Shown in pieces: positions 1-11,615 of a DNA stretch of 11,624 bases. Below the pieces are notes generated by a model. It saw only the letters and a program-made list of their open reading frames with translations. It had not been told where the DNA came from and did not search any database. The DNA is from Falciphora oryzae (lineage: Eukaryota > Ascomycota > Sordariomycetes > Magnaporthales > Magnaporthaceae), in contig JNVV01000071.1 in the NCBI GenBank assembly GCA_000733355.1, positions 95,087-106,710 on the forward strand, in the 5' to 3' direction. Each line of letters starts with the position of its first letter. Position 1 is the first letter of the stretch. The position numbers and the translations under genes were made by a program.

Positions 1-468
1 AAAAAAAAAAAGCTTTTGCAGTAGCCGTTTCCAGTACCCGGGCCTGTCAAAAGCCGGGGGAGGGTCCGCTATAAGCCATTTATTTTCTACTGCCTTACTG
101 TCACGGCATGTGGGGGGTCTCCCAGGCGCACGGGCCTGGCAGCTGATTAAATAAGCCCCTCCCAGGCAGATAGAGTGCACGGCACGCACCCAGGCTCGAT
201 TTCTTCCCAATACATCTCTCTTTTGGCCACCTTTTGCAGCCACCCTACCTGCCGTGATACTTAGCCAACCTGCAATATACAAAGTGGGAAAGTGTAACAG
301 CCCGTGTGGGTTGTGCGCTGCCATCCTTGATAAGCTGTGCAGACGGGCGATCCAAGCAGCAGCTTGGATTGAAGACCTTTTGGTTATTGGCTCAGTGGTA
401 TAAGGCCCGCGCCGCTGTGTTGCAGAAAGGGGTTTGTTTTTTCCGCAACGGCACGGGTTATCGTTTTC
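1..468. other. Gene-free stretch left of the solo LTR
   Basis: I see no supportable coding region here. Notable details are a run of A at the left edge, an 8-bp-stem hairpin at about 353-372 (ATCCAAGC, loop AGCA, GCTTGGAT), and TGTAACAGCCC at about 293, which resembles the 5' end of the LTR family further right but is not followed by clear LTR sequence. At 388-398, TGGCTCAGTGG fits the RNA polymerase III A-box consensus, but no convincing B box or tRNA cloverleaf follows. Confidence 0.4.
464..468. repeat. Target site duplication, left copy (TTTTC)
   Basis: TTTTC directly abuts the TGTAACA end of the solo LTR and recurs exactly at 973-977 after the TGTTACA end. Five-base duplications are usual for LTR-retrotransposon integrase. 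Confidence 0.8.
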
Positions 469-972
469 TGTAACACCCGCCGACCCAACGCGCCCGCGGG
501 CGCGATATCAGCCAGCCACGCTCACGCCCTCGCCCGCCAACGGCTTTGGCGATTAGCACCCGCCAACCCAACGCGACCGCAAGCACGATATCCGCCAGCC
601 AATAGGGTGGCGCATGCGACGTGCTGTTTTAGGAGAGTCAGATCCAAGGGGTTGTGACACGCTGGTACAGAGGGATCCCTACATGACACATCTAAACCCC
701 GAAGCGTTGATTCGGGACGGAGCATATCCAGACCCGTACGGGCGCCGCGGGGAAGAAGGCATGCCGACGGCAGGCCGACGGCAGCCGAAGGACTGTGTAT
801 AAGAAGGGCCCGAAGGACCTCCTGTAAAGGGGGTTTGGAGGGCAAGCAATCGTTTTTCTATTTCTTCACCATCATAGATTTGTCGAGCCCCGTACTGTTA
901 AGCCATTGAACCTCTGAGATCCCCTTTCCCTACAGACGTGACCCTCCCCCTAGGAGGCCACAGTCTGTTACA
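469..972 (+). mobile_element. Solo LTR, 504 bp, intact ends and TSD
   Basis: The element begins TGTAACACCC and ends CTGTTACA, giving perfect 7-bp terminal inverted repeats of the TG...CA type. It is flanked on both sides by TTTTC. A TATA-like TATAAG lies at 798-803, followed by GGGTTTGGAGGGCAAGC at about 830-846, and both are conserved in the inverted copy at 1428-1983. Two diverged copies of a roughly 40-bp block (around 477-519 and 559-600, period about 83 bp) lie in the U3-like left part. No gag or pol reading frame lies inside, so this is a solo LTR left by LTR-LTR recombination. The superfamily (Ty1/copia or Ty3/gypsy) cannot be told from an LTR alone. Confidence 0.8.
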
Positions 973-977
973 TTTTC
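973..977. repeat. Target site duplication, right copy (TTTTC)
   Basis: Exact match to 464-468, directly after the terminal TGTTACA of the solo LTR. Confidence 0.8.
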
Positions 978-1035
978 GTACTGGAACTTTCGATAGTACC
1001 AATCGAAATCCCCGTGCCCTGTGCGTGCAGCTATT

Positions 1036-1427
1036 TGTAACACCCCACACCGAACTATAGCTAGCAGCCGTAAAGGACGCCACCGGTGGCCTTAAAGGAG
1101 GGCTCCGGGTGGTAACCGGAGGGGCGCAAACCCTAACGGAGTGCGTGTTATGGCGTGGCGTGCCCTCTCGTGCAGCCTGGCCTCACAGAGGGTACTTGAG
1201 CCTCCAATTGAGCCAAAGTTTCAGCTTTGGCTTAGTCGTCCTTTTGGTAGCAAGTGGGTGGAGGCTCCTACTGCCGAACCGTGACAGTGCGGATTAAAAA
1301 GAGTTTAGCTTTACGACACGCATACCGGTTAGCTTCCGCAAATCCGCCCGGCCCGGTTACGGCGTACCCAAACTCAAAAGGGGACGAAACACATCCGGCC
1401 CCGACGGACGCTACGGAGGAGGAAGCG
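1036..1427 (+). mobile_element. Truncated LTR copy, same family, interrupted
   Basis: It starts TGTAACACCCC, followed by a stretch around 1099-1132 (GGGCTCCGGGTGGTAACC, then AGGGGCGCAAACCCTAACGG) that matches the reverse complement of about 1877-1923 with few mismatches. After an interruption at 1146-1291 the match resumes (GTGCGGATTAAAAAGAGTTT onward) and runs to about 1427, where the reverse-oriented copy begins. The TATA and U5-like parts seen in the other copies are missing, so this is a 5' part only. No target duplication is visible. Confidence 0.65.
1146..1291. mobile_element. 146-bp insertion inside the truncated LTR
   Basis: Compared with the inverted copy, which reads straight through this point, the + copy carries about 146 extra bases. 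They are bordered by AGTGCG at 1140-1145 and again at 1286-1291, as expected for a target duplication. Inside is a hairpin, AGCCAAAG-TTTCAG-CTTTGGCT, near 1210-1231. There is no coding frame, and the termini do not form a clear inverted repeat, so this is either a small non-autonomous element or a simple indel. Confidence 0.4.
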
Positions 1428-1983
1428 TGTAACAGGCTCCGGCCCTCTGTAGCAGGCTACAGCGGTGTCAGGCCTGCAAAAGGGGGGTTTTCTCAAGGAG
1501 ATCTCAAAGGTCCAGGAGTTCAACAGTCGTGTTCGTGCAAGGCTCAACAAGTCTATGGTGATGATGAACAAAAAACAAAAACGATAGCTTGCCCTTTAGA
1601 CTCCCTTCACAGGGGGTCCCTCGGACCCTTTTTATACACTGGCCCCCCGGCCGTCCTTCGGTTGCCGTCGGCAGGCCTCCTCCCCTATGGCGCCCGCCGG
1701 GGCCTGTCTTTTCGGCTGTTGTCGGTATACTTCCTTTGTGGCGTCCGCCCGGGGCTGGATATGGTTTGTCCCCTTTCAGGGCTCGGAGCTTGGATGCGCT
1801 TTGACCGGGCTGGGCGTCCGTACCTGCGGAGGCCAGCCGGCATGCGTGTTATAAAGCCGAACTCTTTTGATCCGCACGTCCCTCAGGGCTTGCGCCCCTC
1901 TGGCCACCACCCGGAGTCCTCCCCTGAGGCTGCCCGTGGCGGTCCCTAGAGCTGCTGATCATGGCTTTGTGCGGGGTGTTACA
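1428..1983 (-). mobile_element. Inverted LTR copy, about 556 bp
   Basis: On the minus strand it starts TGTAACACCCCGC at 1983 and ends GAGCCTGTTACA at 1428. It shares with the solo LTR the TATA region (TATAAA at 1636-1631), the GGGCAAGC block, CATAGACTTGTTGAGCC and the ACCTTTGAGATCTCC block. Relative to the solo LTR it has an extra duplicated block of about 40 bp around 1660-1750 (GGGCGGACGCC and GGCGGGCGCC copies). Flanks AAGCG and AAAAG do not match exactly, so no clean target duplication is visible. Apparent ORFs across it are in non-coding repeat sequence. Confidence 0.7.
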
Positions 1984-2173
1984 AAAAGCAAAATGTTATA
2001 GGACCCACTGGCCCTAATCACCTGATTTGCAGCTTAACGCACCAAATAAAGCCACCATTCTTTTCCATAAATTTGTAGTATTTACCACAATTCACGACAT
2101 TTAGCCTACAGTTGTTAGCCTCCACACGGAAACGCTTAACCGGCTCGCTGTCGCGGACCCGTCCTCGCTTATA

Positions 2174-3085
2174 ATGCCGCGCTGCGATCCCGATTCGGAA
2201 TCCGAGGACAACCCACGCCGCGTCCTCGATACGGATGGCGACTTCACCGTCGTTGACGCCGAGCCGAGCGTCACCTTCAAGCTCCACGACTTCCACCCAA
2301 TGGTGGAAGATGAGAACGGAAACATGATTCCCTTTCCCGGCGTCCTCTCCCTGCGCCCCGTTCCCTCCCCCGCAATCGTCCAGCGTGTTCGGTCGGCGAT
2401 GGGAAACGGCACTAACGGCGTCTGGGTCGGCACCGTCTTCGCTCCAGAGGCCGGTGCATCTCCAGCGTCCATGTTCGCGCCGCGGCACGTCAACACAGCG
2501 ACACCACGCCGAAATGTGACACGTACCGTGCTCCGCCGTCGGTACGTGCCTCGCATCGGCGGGCTTAAAACGATGCTCATGTTTTCCGACGGCTCGTGCC
2601 TTGCCAACGGTGAGGCGGACGCTCGGGCTGGGTGGGCATTTATCTTCAAGCCCGGGTCCGAGGGTGTCGTGAGCGGGGTGCTCGAGCAGAAAGGTCCGGA
2701 CGACGAGTTGCATGGAGCAACGAGCAACCGCGCTGAGCTGCGTGCCATCATCGCGGCGCTCGAGTTCCGCTCGTGGTGGGGTGAAGGTTGGGAGCGCATC
2801 GTGATCGCCACAGACTCGGAGTATGTCGTGCACGGCGCGACGGCGTGGTTGCGGAGCTGGGCAGCGCGCGGCTGGCGCACGTCAGGGGGTTCGCCGGCGC
2901 GCAATCGAGACTTGTGGGAGCGGCTAAGCGAGCGGATGGGAATGTGTGTGGAGGGTGGCTGCGAGGTAAGCTTCTGGCGGGTCCCGAGAGCTTGGAATAC
3001 CGAGGCGGATCGGGCCGCTAAGGCCGCTGCTGAGGATGGCGGAAGCGAGGTGGAATATATCACCCGGAGAGGCATAATTACCTAA
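2174..3085 (+). CDS. RNase H1-like ribonuclease, stand-alone
   Basis: Single-exon protein of 303 residues. The C-terminal half is an RNase H fold, an enzyme that cuts the RNA strand of RNA:DNA hybrids using two metal ions. The usual four acidic residues can be placed: D139 in FSDGSC, E188 in SNRAELRAIIAALE, D214 in IATDSEYVV, and D279 in WNTEADRAAK. The WLRSWAARGWRTSGG stretch between the third and fourth is typical of RNase H1 substrate-handling segments. The first 130 residues are acidic then arginine-rich, with no N-terminal hybrid-binding domain that I recognise. The start ATG at 2174 follows TATA directly. No polymerase or integrase domain is attached, so it is not obviously part of a retrotransposon. 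Such free-standing RNase H-like genes are common in filamentous fungi; the cellular role is unknown. Confidence 0.8.
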   Translation: MPRCDPDSESEDNPRRVLDTDGDFTVVDAEPSVTFKLHDFHPMVEDENGNMIPFPGVLSLRPVPSPAIVQRVRSAMGNGTNGVWVGTVFAPEAGASPASMFAPRHVNTATPRRNVTRTVLRRRYVPRIGGLKTMLMFSDGSCLANGEADARAGWAFIFKPGSEGVVSGVLEQKGPDDELHGATSNRAELRAIIAALEFRSWWGEGWERIVIATDSEYVVHGATAWLRSWAARGWRTSGGSPARNRDLWERLSERMGMCVEGGCEVSFWRVPRAWNTEADRAAKAAAEDGGSEVEYITRRGIIT

Positions 3086-3618
3086 CCCGAGGGCCCAAAG
3101 CCCCACTTGAGTTTTCGATTCATAGTACCAAATTTACAGCGACGCGTTTGACGAAAAAAAAAACGATGCCAATATAACCCTAAGCTAATACAATCGAGAG
3201 CGTTTGGAGGCTGCAAGCTGACTTTCGGTAAAGAGCTTGACCGGGGCACTGGAGGACTTGCCTTCATGTCGACCGTTATGCTCATTTCTTGGATGCAGCG
3301 GCAGGTGTATATAGGTCGTAAGGAATGGGCTGGGCCTGTCAGCATGGCGCAACGCCTGGCGGTCGATCTGCTCGACCAGCAGGGCTCCATCAGCACGCAG
3401 TAGTTGGCTAGAGTGCCAGTTCACCGATTTCCTACTGGTATCAGATAGATGATAATATCACTATCACTCGGCCCTGCTTCCTAACCACCCACATATGCAA
3501 TGGCTTTGGACTTTGCGCCGTAGACAGTTGGATTTCAGCCTGGGAGGTAGGCTTTCCAGGTTTTCAGGCTCTTGTGCGAAAGCATCAGCAAACCCCAGCC
3601 AGGCTTTAAATTCGAAAA
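3086..3618. other. Intergenic stretch with a small open frame
   Basis: No recognisable gene. On the + strand an open frame runs from about 3153 to a TAG at 3401, with a first ATG at 3266 giving 45 residues (MSTVMLISWMQRQVYIG...). Its composition is protein-like, but I recognise no family and it could be a relic. A TATATA-like sequence lies near 3307-3314, and around 3443-3467 there are GATAG, GATAATATC and CTATC motifs that could bind a GATA factor. Confidence 0.3.
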
Positions 3619-3983
3619 TGTTACAACACAGAGGACCAAGCCCTAGTGGCAGAGGTTTTGAACTTAAGGCCCCAGTGTGGCGAAGGTTTTATGCTTGCCA
3701 CCCTAAGGACTGGGACAGAGTTTGGAAGCCCGGTACGGATAGGAATAGCAACAGAGGCGCAAGCAGGAAACTACACTGTCAGAGTCCTTGAAGGGATCAC
3801 CAGAGGGGCTACATAAGAAAGGGAGCTTGCCCAAACAAGGAGGTTTGGAGGGCAAGCGACAGGACCGTGACGACCGTAACTACCGCAACCAATCCTAGTA
3901 CACCACATTATCAATACCGTTGAGTTGGACCTCTGAGATCTCCCCGCGAGAACCCTACATTATAGCCCCAGCGGCGCGTTACA
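3619..3983 (+). mobile_element. Decayed LTR relative of the left-hand family
   Basis: This copy shares with the solo LTR, in the same order, ACATAAGAAAGGG (3811-3823, matching TATAAGAAGGG), GGTTTGGAGGGCAAGC (about 3842-3857) and TTGGACCTCTGAGATC (about 3924-3939). TGTTACAACA at 3619 and GCGCGTTACA at 3974-3983 are plausible eroded ends, and flanks GAAAA and GAGAA could be a diverged target duplication. It is much more diverged than the copies at 469-1983. The end positions are tentative. Confidence 0.45.
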
Positions 3984-4321
3984 GAGAAGTCCTCCCTGCA
4001 GCCAGGCTCTCAGCCTGGGCCTGGGAACTGATTTGGAGTCGAGCACGATGGCCACTGGGAATTCGCCGTCACGAACGAATTTGCCTTATCAAACCTGTGC
4101 AGGGTTCCTCGGTGTACGAGGTCATAGCTGACTAATGGAGGACAGGCGGCGCAGTTCGTAAAAGGTGAATACGTGTCAGGGATGGCCTTTGTGCTGACAC
4201 AGAGCAGTGAACCTGCTCACGCATTCCCGGAGATCAGAGGTGGGTGCTTTCACGCTGTCAAGCAGTGTAGTTACAGCGTAATCTTGGAGCGACGCCCAGG
4301 TCGTCAAGATTGGAACTGCCG
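3984..4321. other. Unassigned sequence between LTR relic and Q-rich relic
   Basis: No recognised gene. A + frame is open from 4128 to a TGA at 4323-4325 (about 65 codons, containing VKGEYVSGMAFVL) but has no start codon at its beginning and no family I recognise. It may be a further fragment of degraded coding sequence leading into the glutamine-rich relic. Confidence 0.25.
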
Positions 4322-4980
4322 ATGAGTGTCGTCAGCAGCCCGGGCATGACTTTTAACGGTGGGGCGTCGCCGCCCTTGCAACAACAGGGGCAGCCGCCCT
4401 ACAACTCACCGCAGGTCCGGGGCTCCAACGGCCCCACCAGCGCGCTGCTGTTGTCGGGATACGCGAGCAACCCTCGACTTTCGGAAACCGCTCAGCAGCA
4501 GCAGCAGCAATGACATCAGTATGTTGCAGGCGGGAATACCAACAACAACCGAAGGAGCGCCCCGACTCGAAGGCACAGCAGCAACAGTGGCTTCGGCTTC
4601 GTCTTCGCCCCTTATCGTCGCAGCCGCAGTCGGGGTCCCCGACGGCGGTGTCTGTACCGACAACTACAGCTACGCCATACGGGCACGGCTGAAGGCAGGT
4701 GTCCTCGACGCCATCGGTCACGGGCTCGACAGTGTCCTACAGCCTGCCTACACCGGCGTACTTTCGGGGGCAACAGCAACAGCAGCCCCAGCAGCCCCAG
4801 CAGCAGCAGCAACAGCAACAAACCATGCCAGCCGTTCCACCGGGATACGTCGCGGCCGTCGCGGTTGGCGGCCCGAGCCAGGTCGGGCATGGGAACTCGG
4901 AGGGATACTTCCCGCTGCAGCCATCGCGTTCGCCGCCGCGAGGTGGCGAGGCGGGGTCGCTACCGAGGCGGCCCAGCTGA
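4322..4980 (+). pseudogene. Frame-broken glutamine-rich coding relic
   Basis: Three protein-like pieces lie in two frames. From ATG 4322, a 63-residue frame (MSVVSSPGMTFNGGASPP...) ends at a TGA right after a CAG/CAA run (about 4495-4513). Coding-like composition then continues in the next frame (about 4510-4692, SSQPQSGSPTAVSVP...), is cut by a TGA at about 4690, and continues in that same frame through 4699-4980 with a glutamine/proline tract (4769-4828) to a TGA at 4978-4980. Such Q/P/S-rich sequence is common in disordered parts of fungal transcription factors, but no DNA-binding domain is present. The break beside the CAG repeat fits replication slippage. TTTTTTTTTCAG at 4981-4992 could be a splice acceptor, so a spliced gene is not excluded. 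Confidence 0.4.
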
Positions 4981-5128
4981 TTTTTTTTTCAGGTCCGGGC
5001 ACGCTTCCTCCTCCATTTTCTTGGATCTTCGTCAGCTATCACTCCAGGTTTTTTTTGGCTTTACTTTGTGTCCAATCTGCCACGGCTCTCTGTTCTCCGG
5101 GATGTGTTTTTTACTTTTATGCCACAGT

Positions 5129-5837
5129 TTACCTAGAGTCCTTGCACGGAACACAGAGCGAGGTTACACTCCAGCGGATGACGCGAAAATCCGTCGGCTG
5201 AAAGAGCAGGGACTTTCTTGGTTCGTCAACTTTTTGTAGGGAGTCGGGCGGAAGCGGCGTATCCAACTGTGCGTCGAGATCCTGGACCAGCTTCCCCGGT
5301 GTTTCCCAGCCTTCTAATGACTGGAGAAACCACTCGAGCGGCGTAGCATAGTGGAGGCCAGCGCCCTGGACCTTGATGGAGGCCTGAAGACTCGTGCTTT
5401 TCTTTATTGTTGAACCGTCTGCGGACTTCCGGATCTCCCTCAGCCCGGTCGAGAAGAGCTCGAGCGCCAGAGAGCATGCCCTCTCGATTTTGCAGCAAAG
5501 CAGTTTGCCTTCCCTACTGTATTCATCTTTGAGCAGCTTGTCAGTTACCAGGGTACCTACTGTCTCGGACTTGACAAAATAGCGTGATCCGGGGGACTGG
5601 GAGAGGGGACTTACTCGGCTGCGCTACACGCTGAACAGCAGCCAAGAGAGCAGCTGTGCTCTTAAGCTGAACCCGAACGGCGCGTATGAACTTGGTGTAG
5701 TCCTCTGCGGGCCGTAATGACTCCATCGTATCCGCAGCACGTCCGGTAGCTGCCTCCTCGAAACGGCCGACAACAGAGAAGATGCGGCGAATATCTCGCG
5801 TCATCGGCCCAAACGCCTGGAAAAGTTCACCCTGCAC
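5129..5837 (-). CDS. Uncharacterised helical protein, two exons, 5' end unresolved
   Basis: Exon 1 (about 5831-5615, minus strand) encodes a helix-rich stretch containing RDIRRIFSVVGRFEEAATG and ending LLAAVQRVAQP. It meets a canonical donor GTAAGT at 5614. An acceptor at 5557 (ACAGTAG) or 5560 (GACAG) restores the frame, for a 58- or 55-nt intron. Exon 2 then stays open to a TAA at 5131-5129 (about 142 codons), with LCCKIERACSLALELFSTGL and HYATPLEWFLQSLEGWE, alternating hydrophobic and charged as in a real helical protein. GTGCAG at 5837-5832 may be a splice acceptor, as an in-frame TGA lies just upstream; otherwise the first ATG is in FGPMTRD. I do not recognise the family. It lies downstream of the CHAT-NLR gene on the same strand. 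The last 35 or so codons overlap a Myb-like fragment on the other strand, so the 3' end may be artefactual. Confidence 0.5.
5143..5239 (+). pseudogene. Myb/SANT-like fragment
   Basis: A short + frame reads RGYTPADDAKIRRLKEQGLSW and stops at TAG 5237-5239 shortly after. Fungal Myb/SANT-like domains commonly have the form [YW]-[ST]-P-E-[ED]-D-x-x-[IL]-x-x-L-[KR]-E-x-G-L-S-W, so the first two helices are recognisable. The third helix is missing or hidden by frame loss. No upstream exon is convincing. This may be the tail end of the decayed region starting at 4322. The fit to the motif is by eye. Confidence 0.35.
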
Positions 5838-6222
5838 AAGGGTGGCTCACATTCTGTCTGTCTATCCTGAATCTGTTCAGGGGTTGGGCTGGAAGGAGGG
5901 AACCCGGCGAAAAGCTGAGGGACGGATCCCGCGGAGTCCAGTTGGATGTGAAATCTCCAATGCTGCAGGTGGCCAGTGGGTTGAAACCGGTGCTTCGATT
6001 CTCTCTGGAATTCTATAAGTCAAAGTGAGTTTGAAGATCGGGTAGCATCCGGAAAACCACTCGTTGGTGTGCCTGGAAGCCGTACCCAGCCAAATGCTTG
6101 GCGGATGGCCGCCGCGGCTGAATTATCCGATTGGCCCAGTAAGATGAAGTGGCATGGAGGGTCAAAGGCGTGCGACGGTCGTTGGTCAACAGCTGAGGAC
6201 CCCTGGCCTGGACAGAACACAG
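5838..6222. other. Intergenic stretch between two minus-strand genes
   Basis: This holds the 3' flank of the CHAT-NLR gene and perhaps the 5' exon of the gene at 5129-5837. The minus frame at 6220-6020 contains a protein-like stretch (CHFILLGQSDNSAAAAIRQ) without a supported start or splice donor. I cannot assign a gene. Confidence 0.3.
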
Positions 6223-9200
6223 CTAGAGCACACCTTGAACCCTGAATTGATGTTGATTTACCAGCCTAGCGCTGCGGTAATGACCCCCCCAGAAAATGGC
6301 TATCCACAATCTCGGGGCGGCGGTTATCTCGTGCCGGAAGAAAAAGACTAGCCACAATTCCGGAGCGACGAAAATGGCTACCCACGGTTCCGGCGACGGC
6401 GCACCCAGCGTTGTGGTTATCGTCTGCCGGAAGAAAATGGCCATCCACACTTCCGGGTGGGCCGGCACTCTGGTCATCAGCTGCTGGAAGAAAATATCTA
6501 TCCACGATTCCTGCGCCAGGGCGCCCAGAATGTCCAACCCGTCCGACCTCGGCACCTGCAGCAGCTGCCTCGCCTCGCTGCGGTGTTCAGCGCCACTCTC
6601 CCTATCCCCGTCGCGCTCACATATCTCGGCTCGCAGCTCGAGCAGCCACGCCTTGTGAAGCCTGTCGTCGTTTCGGTCAAACACCTCCCGTTTCCAGGCG
6701 TCATCAACGATCTTGCGCGCTTGGCCGAGCTGACCGCGATCCATGGCATCGCGGGCCCGCGCGAGGGCCGAGATCAGCTCCTCCCTGAGCCCGAAACCGC
6801 TGATCGCATGCGTGGGGATATCCCTCCACGTCTTATGGCTGGCGTATGACGTACCGCCAGTTATGGCGGCGCTGGCTCTCAAGACGTCCTGGCGCAGCTT
6901 CCACACTTCGTCCGACGTCATTATCCCGGCGTTGGGGCCGGCGAAATCCGCTACCAGCTCTTGACAGCGATCCCAATAGCGAACAGTGGCTGGTGTCGTC
7001 TTTGCCCATATCTCCTGGCGAACTGGTTGCATCTGCTTTAACCGCTGGTGTAGCGCCCCGCCAAGTGCGGCGAACGGCTTGTTCTCCTCCGACATCGGCG
7101 ACCCGACGAACGATTTCCGGATTCCGGCCAAGGCAACACCGTACATGCGGAGCATGAACAGGATCTGCTTCTCCTCGGCGTTGGCTCCCGCCGAGTCGGA
7201 AAGGCGCTTCTCTTGACACAGGATGAAAGCCAGGGCAATTTCCTGAGCAATATGGGCTAGCTGGAACCGGGAAGCCTCGGAGCCCACCCCGCGGTGCAGA
7301 GTCAGCACCACGGGAATGGCCATCAGAGTTTCCAGTGTGATGTTGGGCATGTCCTTCGCCATGTCACTGTGCATGGCGGCGGCCGATACAAAGTTCATAA
7401 ACTCAAACCCGAGCTCCTCGCGGACGCCTTGCCATTCGGGCTCAAAGTACCGGTGCTCGATCGGCCAGGTTCTGGCGCGATAGGTGTAATAGAAGACGAG
7501 AGCTTGCTTGATGTGCACTGTCTTAATGCCTGGACCGTCAAAGTGGTAGAGGGGGGAGGTGCGTAACAGCAGGGGCAGGAGAGGGTGGATGCAATAATAG
7601 TTGGTCTTGGAATGGCCTCGCGGCTCCCGAGGGTCCACCGAGAGGAAATGCGCGGCTTCAAGAGGATCGACGATACGAGCGCACGCCGCGTCGTAGTGGC
7701 CGGACAAGGGTAACTGCTTGACGAAATCGGCGTAGTCCGGGCCATACTTTCCCAGGAAGTCACTCATTTCAGCACCTTTTCTGGTTGACACCTGAGGGTC
7801 GTTGAGCATCTTGGTGAATAACTCTTTGAGTTCAGGGGAGTTTATAAATGAGTCGGGGTTGTTGAAGAGCTCGGCCGCTGCTGACTTCAGCCCGGGAGGC
7901 AGTCTCCGTGAATCAGGCGTCTCCGATCCGTCTTGTTTCATGAGCGCCCTCCACATGGCAATTTGGTCCTCAAGCGTCGAATCACCTGCGAGATCCTTGG
8001 CGACGTGGTCGGAATATGCCGAAACAAAGAGGGGCAGGTCGCTTCGGGGCAGCAGCGCCCAAAAGGGGGCAAGCACCTCGACGGGGACAGCGCACTTGCC
8101 CGCCGGCGGGGTAGCGAGGCTTTGGACAATGCCGAGGAGCTCCGCCACGCAAGGAAGGTCTTCGGTTTGTCCCATCGACATTAGGTGTCGCTGGGCAGCT
8201 TGGCCCTCCATCAACGGCTCGCCGAGGATCAAGAAGATGAGAAACTCTTTTATCGTATTGGCCCTGCTGTGGAGGAACGCGGCGACAACGATAAGGAAGG
8301 CCGCCGGGTTCCCCTCCAAAAGTAATGCAATCTGCTCGAAGCAGTGGAGGTCATCGGAGGATTCGCCCACGGATTTGGCAGCTTGCCCTGTCATGTCCCG
8401 CATCGCTTTTTCCATGCATGTCCAGAGCAGTTGTAGACTGCCGAGCTTGCTGAGCCCCCCGAGAGCTTCACACCTCGGTTCGAAATACCCGCTGAGATTG
8501 TCCCATACCTTGACGGATCTTGTGGCGAAGATGACCTTTGTGCTGCAGCCATCCAACTTGTTCAAGATCTGGGCGACGAAACGGATACAGGACCGCTCCG
8601 CTGACGCTGGCAGATTGTCAAGCATGACGATGCACCGATTCTGCCGCAGGTATCTAACAACTGCATCCGAACCTTGGTACTCTGCAGTCAGAAGAAAGAG
8701 GTTGTGGGCGCCTCGCCAGTAACCCTCCACGCTCCACCTGGGCGTAGCAGCGCGGCAGTCGTGGAGATACACGCCAGTGGCCAGGCCAGTCTCCTGCCAC
8801 CAGGAGCTGAGATGACGAAGAAGAGCTGTCTTTCCGACACCAGGGCGCCCGCAGAGCCACAGCCATTTTTCCGAAGCGAGTAGACGTGTCTCGATTGTGA
8901 GAATATTGCCCTCGCGGCCAACGACGTCGTTGAACGGCGGCCGACGGGCAAACTGCAAACTCCTTCCGATGAAGCGGTATGCGTCGCTGTCCCGAGGGAA
9001 GGCATGGGTGTAGCAAACGGGGATCATGTAGTCGTAGACGGAGACGCTTGTCGCGTAGCGGGAGCTGCGAGCCGGTTTGAGACGGAGAGCCTGGCGCGCC
9101 CAGGCGGCGGCAGCGTCCAAAGCAAGCCCCTTGGTGAGGATGGCATCGTAGAAGATGGACATGAAGATTTCCACGGCGCGAGACACGACGTCCAATGTCA

Positions 9201-10067
9201 TGGCGACGCATTCCTCCACGCCCGCCTTGAGGATGCCGAGCGCAATGCTGTGATCGGCGTCCCGATAGTGGGCCGAGCGACAGGCGTTGAGAACGACGCG
9301 GCGGGCTCGGTGAAGGGCCAACACAGAAGCCAGATCAGACGTCGAGACCCCCCGCCTTTTCAGTCTGTACTTGCCAGCTTTGTCTGTCGTGATGTCGACA
9401 AAAGCGAGGCCTTGCCTGAAATGTGCGTTAGCTTTGGCCTCGGCCAAGGTCTAAAATCATATGTGGGTAGGTACCTGTCGTCATCCATTTTGAGTCCATG
9501 CAGGTCAAAGTGGACAATGTCGTAAAAGCCCACACCCTTTGTCTCTAGTTCTCGATTGAACTCCTCCCAAGTTGGCGGCCGAACAATCTTCAAGTATGTC
9601 GGCGACGTGAGCTGGTCCGAGTGCCTGCGGATCTTGTCGTGGAGAATCTTGGACACGATGCGATGCGGGATATCCTTTCCCTCTTGGGGCCTAGCGGCTA
9701 CGACGAGGATGTTGAATGATGGAGAGTCTGTTTCGGGCCGTTTCCCGTCGGTGGTGGCAGCGGTTGGCGTCCTCACGGGCTTCGGGGCGTGACGGCTGAC
9801 GAAAACGCCGCCTTTGAACGGCTCGTCCCAGAGCTCAGCATCCTCCAGGAGCTCCCACACCACGGGCGCAAAGCCGCACGGCTGCTCTTGGACGGAGAGG
9901 AGCAGCGCTTCTTTGCGTTCTTCTGGTACCACTATCGAGGCCCATTCGATGGAGTTGACAAGTGCCCTGCCCACGTCTTTGAGCGAGTGTTTGACCCTGT
10001 CGGTGTGCTTGGTTTCGAGAGGGCACAGCACCGCGAAGTCCTCCAGATACCAGTGCATCTCATCCAT
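6223..10067 (-). CDS. CHAT protease - STAND (NLR-like) ATPase with C-terminal W-FF repeats
   Basis: Two exons joined across an intron at 9474-9416; counting from ATG 10067 the protein has about 1261 residues. Residues 110-330 form a CHAT domain, a caspase-like cysteine protease: VHFDLHG supplies the catalytic His (about 190) and VVLNACRSA the Cys (about 243). A P-loop ATPase follows: GRPGVGKTALL (Lys about 393), Walker B CIVMLD (Asp about 464) and a sensor-like FATRS (Arg about 497). A helical arm contains IHPLLPLLLR. TPR-like helices lie at about 1070-1140, and five W-FF repeats end the protein. The order protease, STAND switch, sensor matches NLR-like proteins that oligomerise on ligand binding and activate the effector. 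It is transcribed away from the gasdermin-like gene. An open segment with its own ATG (10226) precedes this start in the same frame but is separated by a TGA, so the allele may be truncated or inactive. Confidence 0.85.
6290..6512 (-). repeat. Five in-frame W-x-x-[IVF]-F repeats at the NLR C-terminus
   Basis: Five DNA repeats with core TGGATAGCCATTTTCTTCC (minus strand) have their Trp codons at 6504-6502, 6447-6445, 6384-6382, 6354-6352 and 6306-6304. They encode SWIDIFF, VWMAIFF, PWVAIFV, LWLVFFF and LWIAIFW, usually preceded by P-E and often followed by R-[QH]-x-x-I-T. Spacings are 19, 21, 10 and 16 codons, all multiples of three, so expansion and loss have respected the frame. I recognise no named repeat family. 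Confidence 0.75.
9416..9474 (-). other. Spliceosomal intron, 59 nt, in the CHAT domain
   Basis: The minus-strand donor GTACCT at 9474 and acceptor ATTTCAG ending at 9416 bracket 59 nt, with a branch-site consensus GCTAAC at 9432-9427. Splicing joins an AG left from exon 1 to G of exon 2, making an Arg codon and putting the catalytic-His half of the CHAT domain in frame with the catalytic-Cys half. Unspliced reading would stop exon 1 at about 9360, inside the domain. Confidence 0.9.
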
Positions 10068-10226
10068 CAGCTCCAACGGGGTCGAGGGAATCTCAAATCA
10101 CTGCTGTCGGGACCCGTGTTTCGCAGTGTGGTTCGTGACTGAGAAGATGCGGTTGCGAGGCTTGCCATCTGCTGCTGACGGACCGGCCTCCTCCCGGCCA
10201 AGTTCCACGATGGAGACGACAGGCAT
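10068..10226 (-). pseudogene. Probable original N-terminus of the CHAT-NLR, cut off by an in-frame TGA
   Basis: ATG at 10226 in a good context (GCCATGCC) opens 42 codons (MPVVSIVELG...) in exactly the frame of the CHAT-NLR, then TGA at 10100-10098, then open again (FEIPSTPLELMDEM...) into the main frame. The region after the TGA already reads like the start of the conserved WYLEDF segment, so conserved sequence seems to lie upstream of ATG 10067. No GT-AG intron I can see removes the TGA with a normal acceptor; only a weak GAG acceptor would. It is a nonsense mutation, a sequencing error, or 5' UTR before a downstream start. Confidence 0.5.
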
Positions 10227-10706
10227 GGCGATCCGGCGGAACTGCGCTCGCCGATCATGTGCTCAAAGAAAACGCTGTCGGGAGCTGAACGGTCTGAGAC
10301 ACCGAGCCGAACGGTCTGTCAGGACGGAACTTCTGTTGAACTTCAAATTGGGGGGGGTTCAATCTTGTTGTTGTCTGTGTTCTGGAAGCGAGAGTTCCCG
10401 AGAGGCGCCCCCGAGCCCTGAACTCTGGTGGCCCAGAGCGGCTGGGTGGGAGCCGGGGTTCCAGGTTCCCCTCAGCTCCCAGACCGCTGCGCCATCCGCG
10501 CGAGCCACCGAAAGCGCTCGCACGGGGAGCCAGATTCAACCTTCACTTTTTTCAGCTGCGGTGTCCTAACCAGAGTTGGAACGGCGCCGACCTGCTTTTG
10601 GCGCTGAGCCACACGGAATAACCCGCTATGACCTGAGCCTTTTCCTGCACTCCGACCAACGCCACTTGAACACACAAGTATCCCCCGAACAGCAGTGACA
10701 CACAAG
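10227..10706. promoter_or_regulatory. Divergent promoter region shared by CHAT-NLR and gasdermin-like gene
   Basis: The 480 bp between the two start regions must carry both promoters if the pair is divergently expressed. It contains a direct repeat GAACGGTCTG at 10287-10296 and 10309-10318 (22-bp period), a G run at 10351-10357, and on the minus strand a perfect A-box-like TGGCGCAGCGG (10494-10484). There is no clear TATA box. Apparent ORFs here have no coding character. Which of these elements, if any, controls expression is unknown. Confidence 0.45.
10287..10318 (+). promoter_or_regulatory. Direct repeat GAACGGTCTG x2, about two helical turns apart
   Basis: Two exact 10-bp copies start 22 bp apart in the divergent promoter, so they would lie on the same face of the DNA, as paired protein-binding sites often do. 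No factor is known to me for this motif. Confidence 0.3.
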
Positions 10707-11615
10707 ATGGGAGATCCGCCGCCGTATTACATCCTCGATCCGCGACGTCTGCTTTCCGCGTCCGCAACGGCAGACTGGCTCGGCCGCATCATCATCGACT
10801 TCCGGGATCCCCTCGCCGATTTCACCCCGGACAAACCCCAGCGTTTCACGGATGGCCTGGTCGTCGAGATGGGCGCCAAAGACGTCCAGGCCCAAATTTC
10901 CCGCAGTCAGAATGCCTCCGTGAGCAGCGCTTTGACAGAGATCGTGTCGGTAGCAAACGGAGGCGGCCGGTTGGCAGGATTCAACTTCCAGACGGGGAAC
11001 ATGAGGATTGTGCGTCTAAGCAAGCATCGCGACGTCTTCCAGACCATGCGCGAGGATGCTGAGGTCCGAGAGTACCTCTCCCGCGCCTTGCGACCCGGCG
11101 GCCCCGTCGCCTACATGGTTGTCGGCCTGCTCGTGTGGACCGACGCCTCGCTTTCCGTCAAACAGGAACGTTCGCGCCAGCATGGAGTTGAAGTCCAGGT
11201 CCCCGCGCTGGCCGTCGGATGCGCCACGGCCGGAATACCACTACCCTTGGAGATCGGCGATCCCGCCACCGCCGCGTCGTCGAGCAACACCAGGCAGACG
11301 CACCTTGCCATGTCCGTTCCCGGCAGCTACATCTTTGCCGTCGAATACAAAGCCATCCGTCGCAGGGCGTACGCCATTTGGCCCAACTCCAAAGCCGACT
11401 GGGATGGAAGGGGCCCTCGGGGAGGAGGTGACCAGAGTTTCAACACACACGAGGATCTTGCTGGGACCGAAGGGGACATGGATGGGGAAAGCCAGCAAAA
11501 TGATTTGGTGCTGGACATGGACGGCGACAGCTGCGTCTGGTATGATACAGTCAACGGTCTGGACGTGGAGGAGCTTGAGCTGCAGAGCATGATTCTTGCT
11601 GTTGAGAAGTCGTAG
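10707..11615 (+). CDS. Gasdermin-like pore-forming protein (fungal RCD-1/HET-Q1 type)
   Basis: Single exon, 302 residues from ATG 10707 (context CACAAGATGG); upstream in-frame codons have no ATG. Gasdermins insert an N-terminal beta-rich domain into membranes and form pores that kill the cell. Signs here: short beta-strand and helix pattern in residues 7-110, then a segment PVAYMVVGLLVWTDASLSV at about 133-151 followed by GSYIFAVEYKAIRRR at 206-220. Spacing and pattern correspond to the conserved late strands of gasdermin N-domains (a VVT-type strand, then a FRV-type strand). Residues 225-302 form a Gly/Asp/Glu-rich, mostly acidic tail. In fungal gasdermins a short C-terminal piece is removed by a protease to activate the protein. 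The divergent CHAT protease gene fits that role. Assignment rests on pattern and context, not on a search. No signal peptide or transmembrane helix is evident. Confidence 0.65.
   Translation: MGDPPPYYILDPRRLLSASATADWLGRIIIDFRDPLADFTPDKPQRFTDGLVVEMGAKDVQAQISRSQNASVSSALTEIVSVANGGGRLAGFNFQTGNMRIVRLSKHRDVFQTMREDAEVREYLSRALRPGGPVAYMVVGLLVWTDASLSVKQERSRQHGVEVQVPALAVGCATAGIPLPLEIGDPATAASSSNTRQTHLAMSVPGSYIFAVEYKAIRRRAYAIWPNSKADWDGRGPRGGGDQSFNTHEDLAGTEGDMDGESQQNDLVLDMDGDSCVWYDTVNGLDVEELELQSMILAVEKS

Follow-up and report, generated by a model that had tools for sequence, protein, structure and literature searches.

A gasdermin gene divergently paired with a CHAT-NLR gene in Falciphora oryzae: a probable two-gene cell-death unit

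Two-gene clusters of a gasdermin and a CHAT protease are known in fungi and are credited to Clave et al. 2022 (as described in PMC10197012, PMC12881547, PMC9815663 and PMC10989679). Two reviews (PMC10197012 and PMC12881547) also describe NOD-like receptors (NLRs) with an N-terminal CHAT domain beside gasdermin genes. As presented there, gasdermin activation has been shown for a tetratricopeptide repeat (TPR)-bearing CHAT protease of Podospora anserina (PMC12881547), and the role of the NLR-fused CHAT form is argued from gene neighbourhood (both reviews). For the gasdermin HET-Q1, a loss of 40 C-terminal residues is given in PMC10989679. Here we analyze a gasdermin-like gene and a CHAT-NLR gene in a window of 11,624 nucleotides from the ascomycete Falciphora oryzae (contig JNVV01000071.1; G000:C71:95087-106710 in our numbering), whose genome comprises 50.2 Mb in 123 contigs. 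The two genes lie on opposite strands, as the original prediction had proposed for a separation of about 0.5 kb. The distance depends on the NLR start codon chosen: the gasdermin ATG is about 480 bases from the upstream NLR ATG (10226) and about 640 bases from the first NLR ATG past an in-frame TGA (10098-10100). The CHAT match itself is found 1.2 kb from the gasdermin gene, which places a protease gene within 10 kb.

The 302-residue protein is a fungal gasdermin, although it is poorly visible to routine searches. Seven homologues share 58-79% identity with it, six of them over 99-100% of the length, and those with a named source are all fungal (Cercophora, Gaeumannomyces, Fusarium and Penicillium). 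As a single sequence, it retrieved no gasdermin from Pfam (best match SNAPC5, E 0.023) or from the PDB (best match a photosystem subunit, E 0.047), and it matched nothing in NCBIfam or PADLOC, the bGSDM model included. Two other family members searched singly against the PDB (L008 and P0012) likewise returned no gasdermin. A wider family profile identified HET-Q1 as the best sequence match in the PDB at a marginal E of 0.026-0.029. With hhalign, the window protein reached 98.1% against three paralogs, and two of these in turn match RCD-1/HET-Q1; the profile match covers positions 6-227 of the alignment. The wider profile and hhalign together show sequence continuity with HET-Q1/RCD-1. The predicted structure displays the gasdermin N-domain fold, with RCD-1 as the best fold match over residues 4-279; an earlier model built from the eight close sequences only (mean predicted local distance difference test, pLDDT, of 36.5) was useless. 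The original prediction had called this protein gasdermin-like and proposed a fold search and a profile comparison as checks; the fold search bears it out, and the profile comparison does so marginally. A fungal gasdermin can thus escape both single-sequence and family searches.

The C-terminus of the protein follows a distinctive pattern. Residues 241-302 carry a net charge of -16, in keeping with the acidic tail noted originally. Pairwise identity is 0.53-0.76 across residues 1-245, 0.36 across residues 246-274 and 0.74 across residues 275-302, as counted on seven of the eight close sequences (P0004, whose C-terminus departs from the others, was dropped). The pore-forming domain is therefore followed by a short extension made of a variable linker and a conserved end. 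A fast-changing acidic linker ahead of a conserved end is the expected look of an inhibitory tail released by a protease. On this sequence pattern, the conserved tail is likely inhibitory and the acidic linker is the likely cleavage site.

The divergent gene encodes a CHAT domain fused to a P-loop NTPase. Joining two frames across a 59-bp intron yields a product open over 1,264 residues and raises the CHAT score to 43.4 bits, against 33.8 bits for the exon 2 frame by itself. CHAT is matched within residues 1-539 of the spliced protein at E 3.9e-11 (43.4 bits, Pfam cut-off 24). The His of HFDLHG and the Cys of NACRS align with the dyads of eight other CHAT places, eight of the 14 others in the genome having been aligned; the first strand of the domain is uncertain. 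The P-loop of the predicted STAND ATPase is present, with NACHT as the best family in these residues (E 5.1e-5, 23.6 bits) and NB-ARC also matched (E 2.8e-4, 20.7 bits), both below their cut-offs of 26.7 and 23.5, respectively. The C-terminal repeat of the original prediction was recovered as five anchors with spacings of 57, 63, 30 and 48 bases, each a multiple of 3; it was not reported by Tandem Repeats Finder at a score of 40. A dispersal of this repeat through the genome was rejected, given that a DNA search of the genome found it at this one place.

The gasdermin family of the window is associated with CHAT genes across the genome, in which at least 15 CHAT, at least 11 C14 and at least 63 S8 matches were counted (the C14 matches all exceed the Pfam cut-off, with C4 and C16 bearing two adjoining ones each). 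CHAT lies within 10 kb at seven of ten gasdermin-like places, and C14 at six of ten. Random placement (20,000 trials, ignoring contig borders) gave means of 0.06 and 0.05, respectively, and never more than two; one CHAT on C9 is counted for two gasdermin places. HET-domain genes served as a control: of 24 such places on CHAT-bearing contigs, among the matches listed of 151, none is within 10 kb of CHAT, the nearest being 11.6 kb away. The ten places include the weak match C35 (E 0.018) and two in which frame changes or stops interrupt the match, C59 and C9:1112229. They do not include C17:571168 and C17:82159, both beside S8 genes, or C79:80157, which was discarded as a gasdermin place upon finding no gasdermin-like frame there, only a long repetitive one. 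The arrangement of the window recurs on C13, where a gasdermin-like frame (minus strand) is divergent from a CHAT/P-loop protein (L048, plus strand); this CHAT is the sole other match in the genome of the window NLR exon 2 at E 0.001 (36% identity). Among the C14 matches, none falls on the contig of the window or on C13. None of the S8 matches falls in the searched parts of C71, leaving CHAT as the visible protease neighbour. Within this genome, neither of the outcomes that the original prediction had named as refuting it was seen, the predicted fold being gasdermin-like and the family keeping company with CHAT genes, and its interpretation is supported.

Other members of the family were also noted. 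Three further gasdermin genes (L045, L046 and L050, on C17 and C58) stand beside S8 matches, and PDB searches with two of them gave RCD-1 or HET-Q1 as a match. Apparently broken copies, with frame changes, stops or truncation, occur at C59:170566-171402, C9:1111941-1112717 and C35:93079-93639, as if the family turns over. P0016 (556 aa) contains a nucleoside phosphorylase domain (PF01048), and its second half is gasdermin-like.

A further arrangement involves a C14 caspase gene. At C53, C78, C9:287530 and C59, a gasdermin-like gene and a C14 gene are tail to tail, with 1.3-1.6 kb between matches, followed by CHAT at 4-12 kb; at C9:1112229, C14 holds the same position and CHAT is on the opposite side. 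Pfam was run on two of the cassette CHAT proteins and identified CHAT plus TPR at C78 and CHAT only at C53. No report of a gasdermin/C14/CHAT cassette in fungi was found in the literature searched, which consisted mostly of titles and the starts of abstracts and is no proof of absence. We tentatively suggest, as a possibility rather than an expectation, that cysteine proteases run a branch of fungal gasdermins which is distinct from the S8-run branch and includes the window protein. Its receptors would range from the all-in-one CHAT-NLR (window and C13) to the gasdermin/C14/CHAT cassette (C53, C78, C9 and perhaps C59), in which CHAT could switch on a gasdermin-cutting caspase. If true, the cassettes would be a fungal equivalent of the relay from receptor to caspase to gasdermin in animals.

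The gasdermin identity, the intact CHAT dyad and P-loop, the divergent pairing, the family-CHAT association and the linker/tail pattern are all computed here. Together, we consider that the pair quite probably forms a regulated cell-death unit composed of a CHAT-NLR receptor and a tail-inhibited gasdermin cut by CHAT. The minus-strand product would be an intracellular receptor in which a CHAT cysteine protease at the N-terminus precedes a P-loop STAND NTPase, while the long C-terminal region presumably does the sensing. Its partner would be held inactive by the short acidic C-terminal tail. A signal, with non-self fusion, infection or damage as candidates, would lead the receptor to oligomerize, whereupon CHAT would become active and cut the variable acidic linker; upon loss of the tail, the N-domain would form pores in the plasma membrane and kill the cell. 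Sensing, oligomerization, cleavage, pore formation and death are modelled here by analogy with HET-Q1/HET-Q2 and the reported CHAT case.

Several observations weigh against this two-gene unit. The structure model has a mean pLDDT of 50 and a predicted template modelling score of 0.53, with 79 of 302 residues at or above 70; E values of the sequence matches in the PDB are marginal; and HET-Q1 is missed by a profile built from just the eight closest sequences, which retrieves nothing but an envelope protein (E 1.6). In the receptor, no Pfam family was matched at E 0.1 over the 407 residues that 7446-6226 encodes, leaving no named sensor repeat such as WD40, ANK or TPR. The in-frame TGA falls between the upstream ATG and the CHAT domain, and of the introns tried only one removes it, at the cost of a GAG acceptor; the first CHAT strand may consequently be missing or the gene damaged. 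CHAT is missing from the 10-kb surroundings of three of the ten gasdermin-like places: C61 and C35, which have no C14 within that distance either, and C59, with CHAT 11.7 kb off.

The TGA and the poor choice of intron would also fit a locus with a genuine gasdermin whose neighbouring CHAT-NLR is in decay or does not activate it, another protease acting instead within what is merely a cluster of cell-death genes. A C14 gene is the nearest protease at several family places, being nearer than CHAT at C53, C78 and C9:287530 (three of the seven CHAT-linked places), and another NLR with NACHT and ankyrin repeats is located 6-8 kb further on. We nonetheless regard this explanation as unlikely, as the rest of the NLR frame stays open for 1,264 codons with a single clean intron, the CHAT dyad and P-loop are kept, and the divergent gasdermin/CHAT pair recurs on C13. 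Still less probable, in our view, is that the 302-residue protein acts without cleavage through the pairing of allelic variants, with the CHAT-NLR as a separate receptor. RCD-1, its nearest solved fold, is described as cleavage-independent in PMC12881547, but the 60-residue acidic extension with its conserved end and the proximity of the gasdermin family to proteases argue against this reading.

The features of the window and the cassette loci are collected in Table 1; the codon positions of the His, Cys and P-loop were counted by hand. Upstream of the pair, Pfam was applied to four frames of window 1-6222, namely an RNase H frame and three short ones that have no match. The NACHT-ankyrin NLR mentioned above (L005:6300-8376, minus strand), whose ankyrin repeats are alike, lies about 6-8 kb past the window.

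Table 1. Coordinates of features in the window and of cassette loci elsewhere in the genome
Feature	Position	Strand	Remarks
RNase H domain protein, 303-codon frame	2174-3085	+	Pfam E 4e-20
Open part of CHAT-NLR gene, with uncertain 5' end	6223..10076	-	frames 10076-9360 and 9447-6223
About five degenerate repeats at NLR C-terminus	6290..6512	-	spacings 57/63/30/48
P-loop of STAND NTPase (GRPGVGKT)	8828..8850	-	NACHT and NB-ARC below Pfam cut-offs
Catalytic Cys codon of CHAT (LNACRS)	9280..9282	-	alignment with 8 other CHAT sequences
59-bp GT..AG intron GTACCT...TTTCAG within CHAT domain	9416..9474	-	joins two frames
Catalytic His codon of CHAT (HFDLHG)	9498..9500	-	alignment with 8 other CHAT sequences
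Single-exon fungal gasdermin-like gene encoding 302 aa	10707..11615	+	ATG 10707, stop 11613-11615
Gasdermin N (pore-forming) domain, approximately residues 1-240	10707..11426	+	fold and profile matches
Variable acidic linker, residues 246-274, likely cleavage region	11442..11528	+	pairwise identity 0.36; putative cleavage
Conserved C-terminal tail, residues 275-302, likely inhibitory piece	11529..11612	+	pairwise identity 0.74
Gasdermin/C14/CHAT cassette loci	C53:151865-159898, C78:68112-77815, C9:287530-292699, C59:170566-183572, C9:1110584-1115129		same order in four, different at C9:1110584

The pair belongs to the gasdermin/CHAT-NLR kind already described in fungi. The suggestion that its partner set is uncharacterized was overstated, because gasdermin genes beside CHAT-NLR genes are already reported in the reviews cited above. 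The described clusters likewise have gasdermin and CHAT genes no more than 10 kb apart, with CHAT-NLRs beside gasdermins; the difference is that the window gasdermin comes from a branch missed by single-sequence searches and that its NLR ends in an unnamed C-terminal region with short repeats. HET-Q1/HET-Q2 of Podospora anserina offers a parallel in that a short C-terminal piece of HET-Q1, the best PDB sequence match of the window protein, is removed by a partner protease. However, HET-Q2 is a small S8 subtilase, whereas the visible partner here is a CHAT-NLR. RCD-1 of Neurospora crassa works by allelic pairing without cleavage, according to PMC12881547, whereas the acidic tail of the window protein finishes in a conserved stretch and a protease gene lies next door. 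Bacterial gasdermins are far from the window protein in sequence; the PADLOC bGSDM model matches one tested S8-linked paralog (E 7.6e-4) but not the window protein. The present analysis adds to the described kind a branch so divergent that the usual searches miss it, a well-defined pattern of linker and tail, a replicate within the same genome and the C14 cassette. Since the NLR-fused form is argued from neighbourhood in the reviews, a pair such as this, in which the dyad is intact and linker and tail are clearly set apart, lends itself to a direct test. The pair would represent a compact two-gene fungal version of the animal inflammasome route, comprising sensor, protease and pore.
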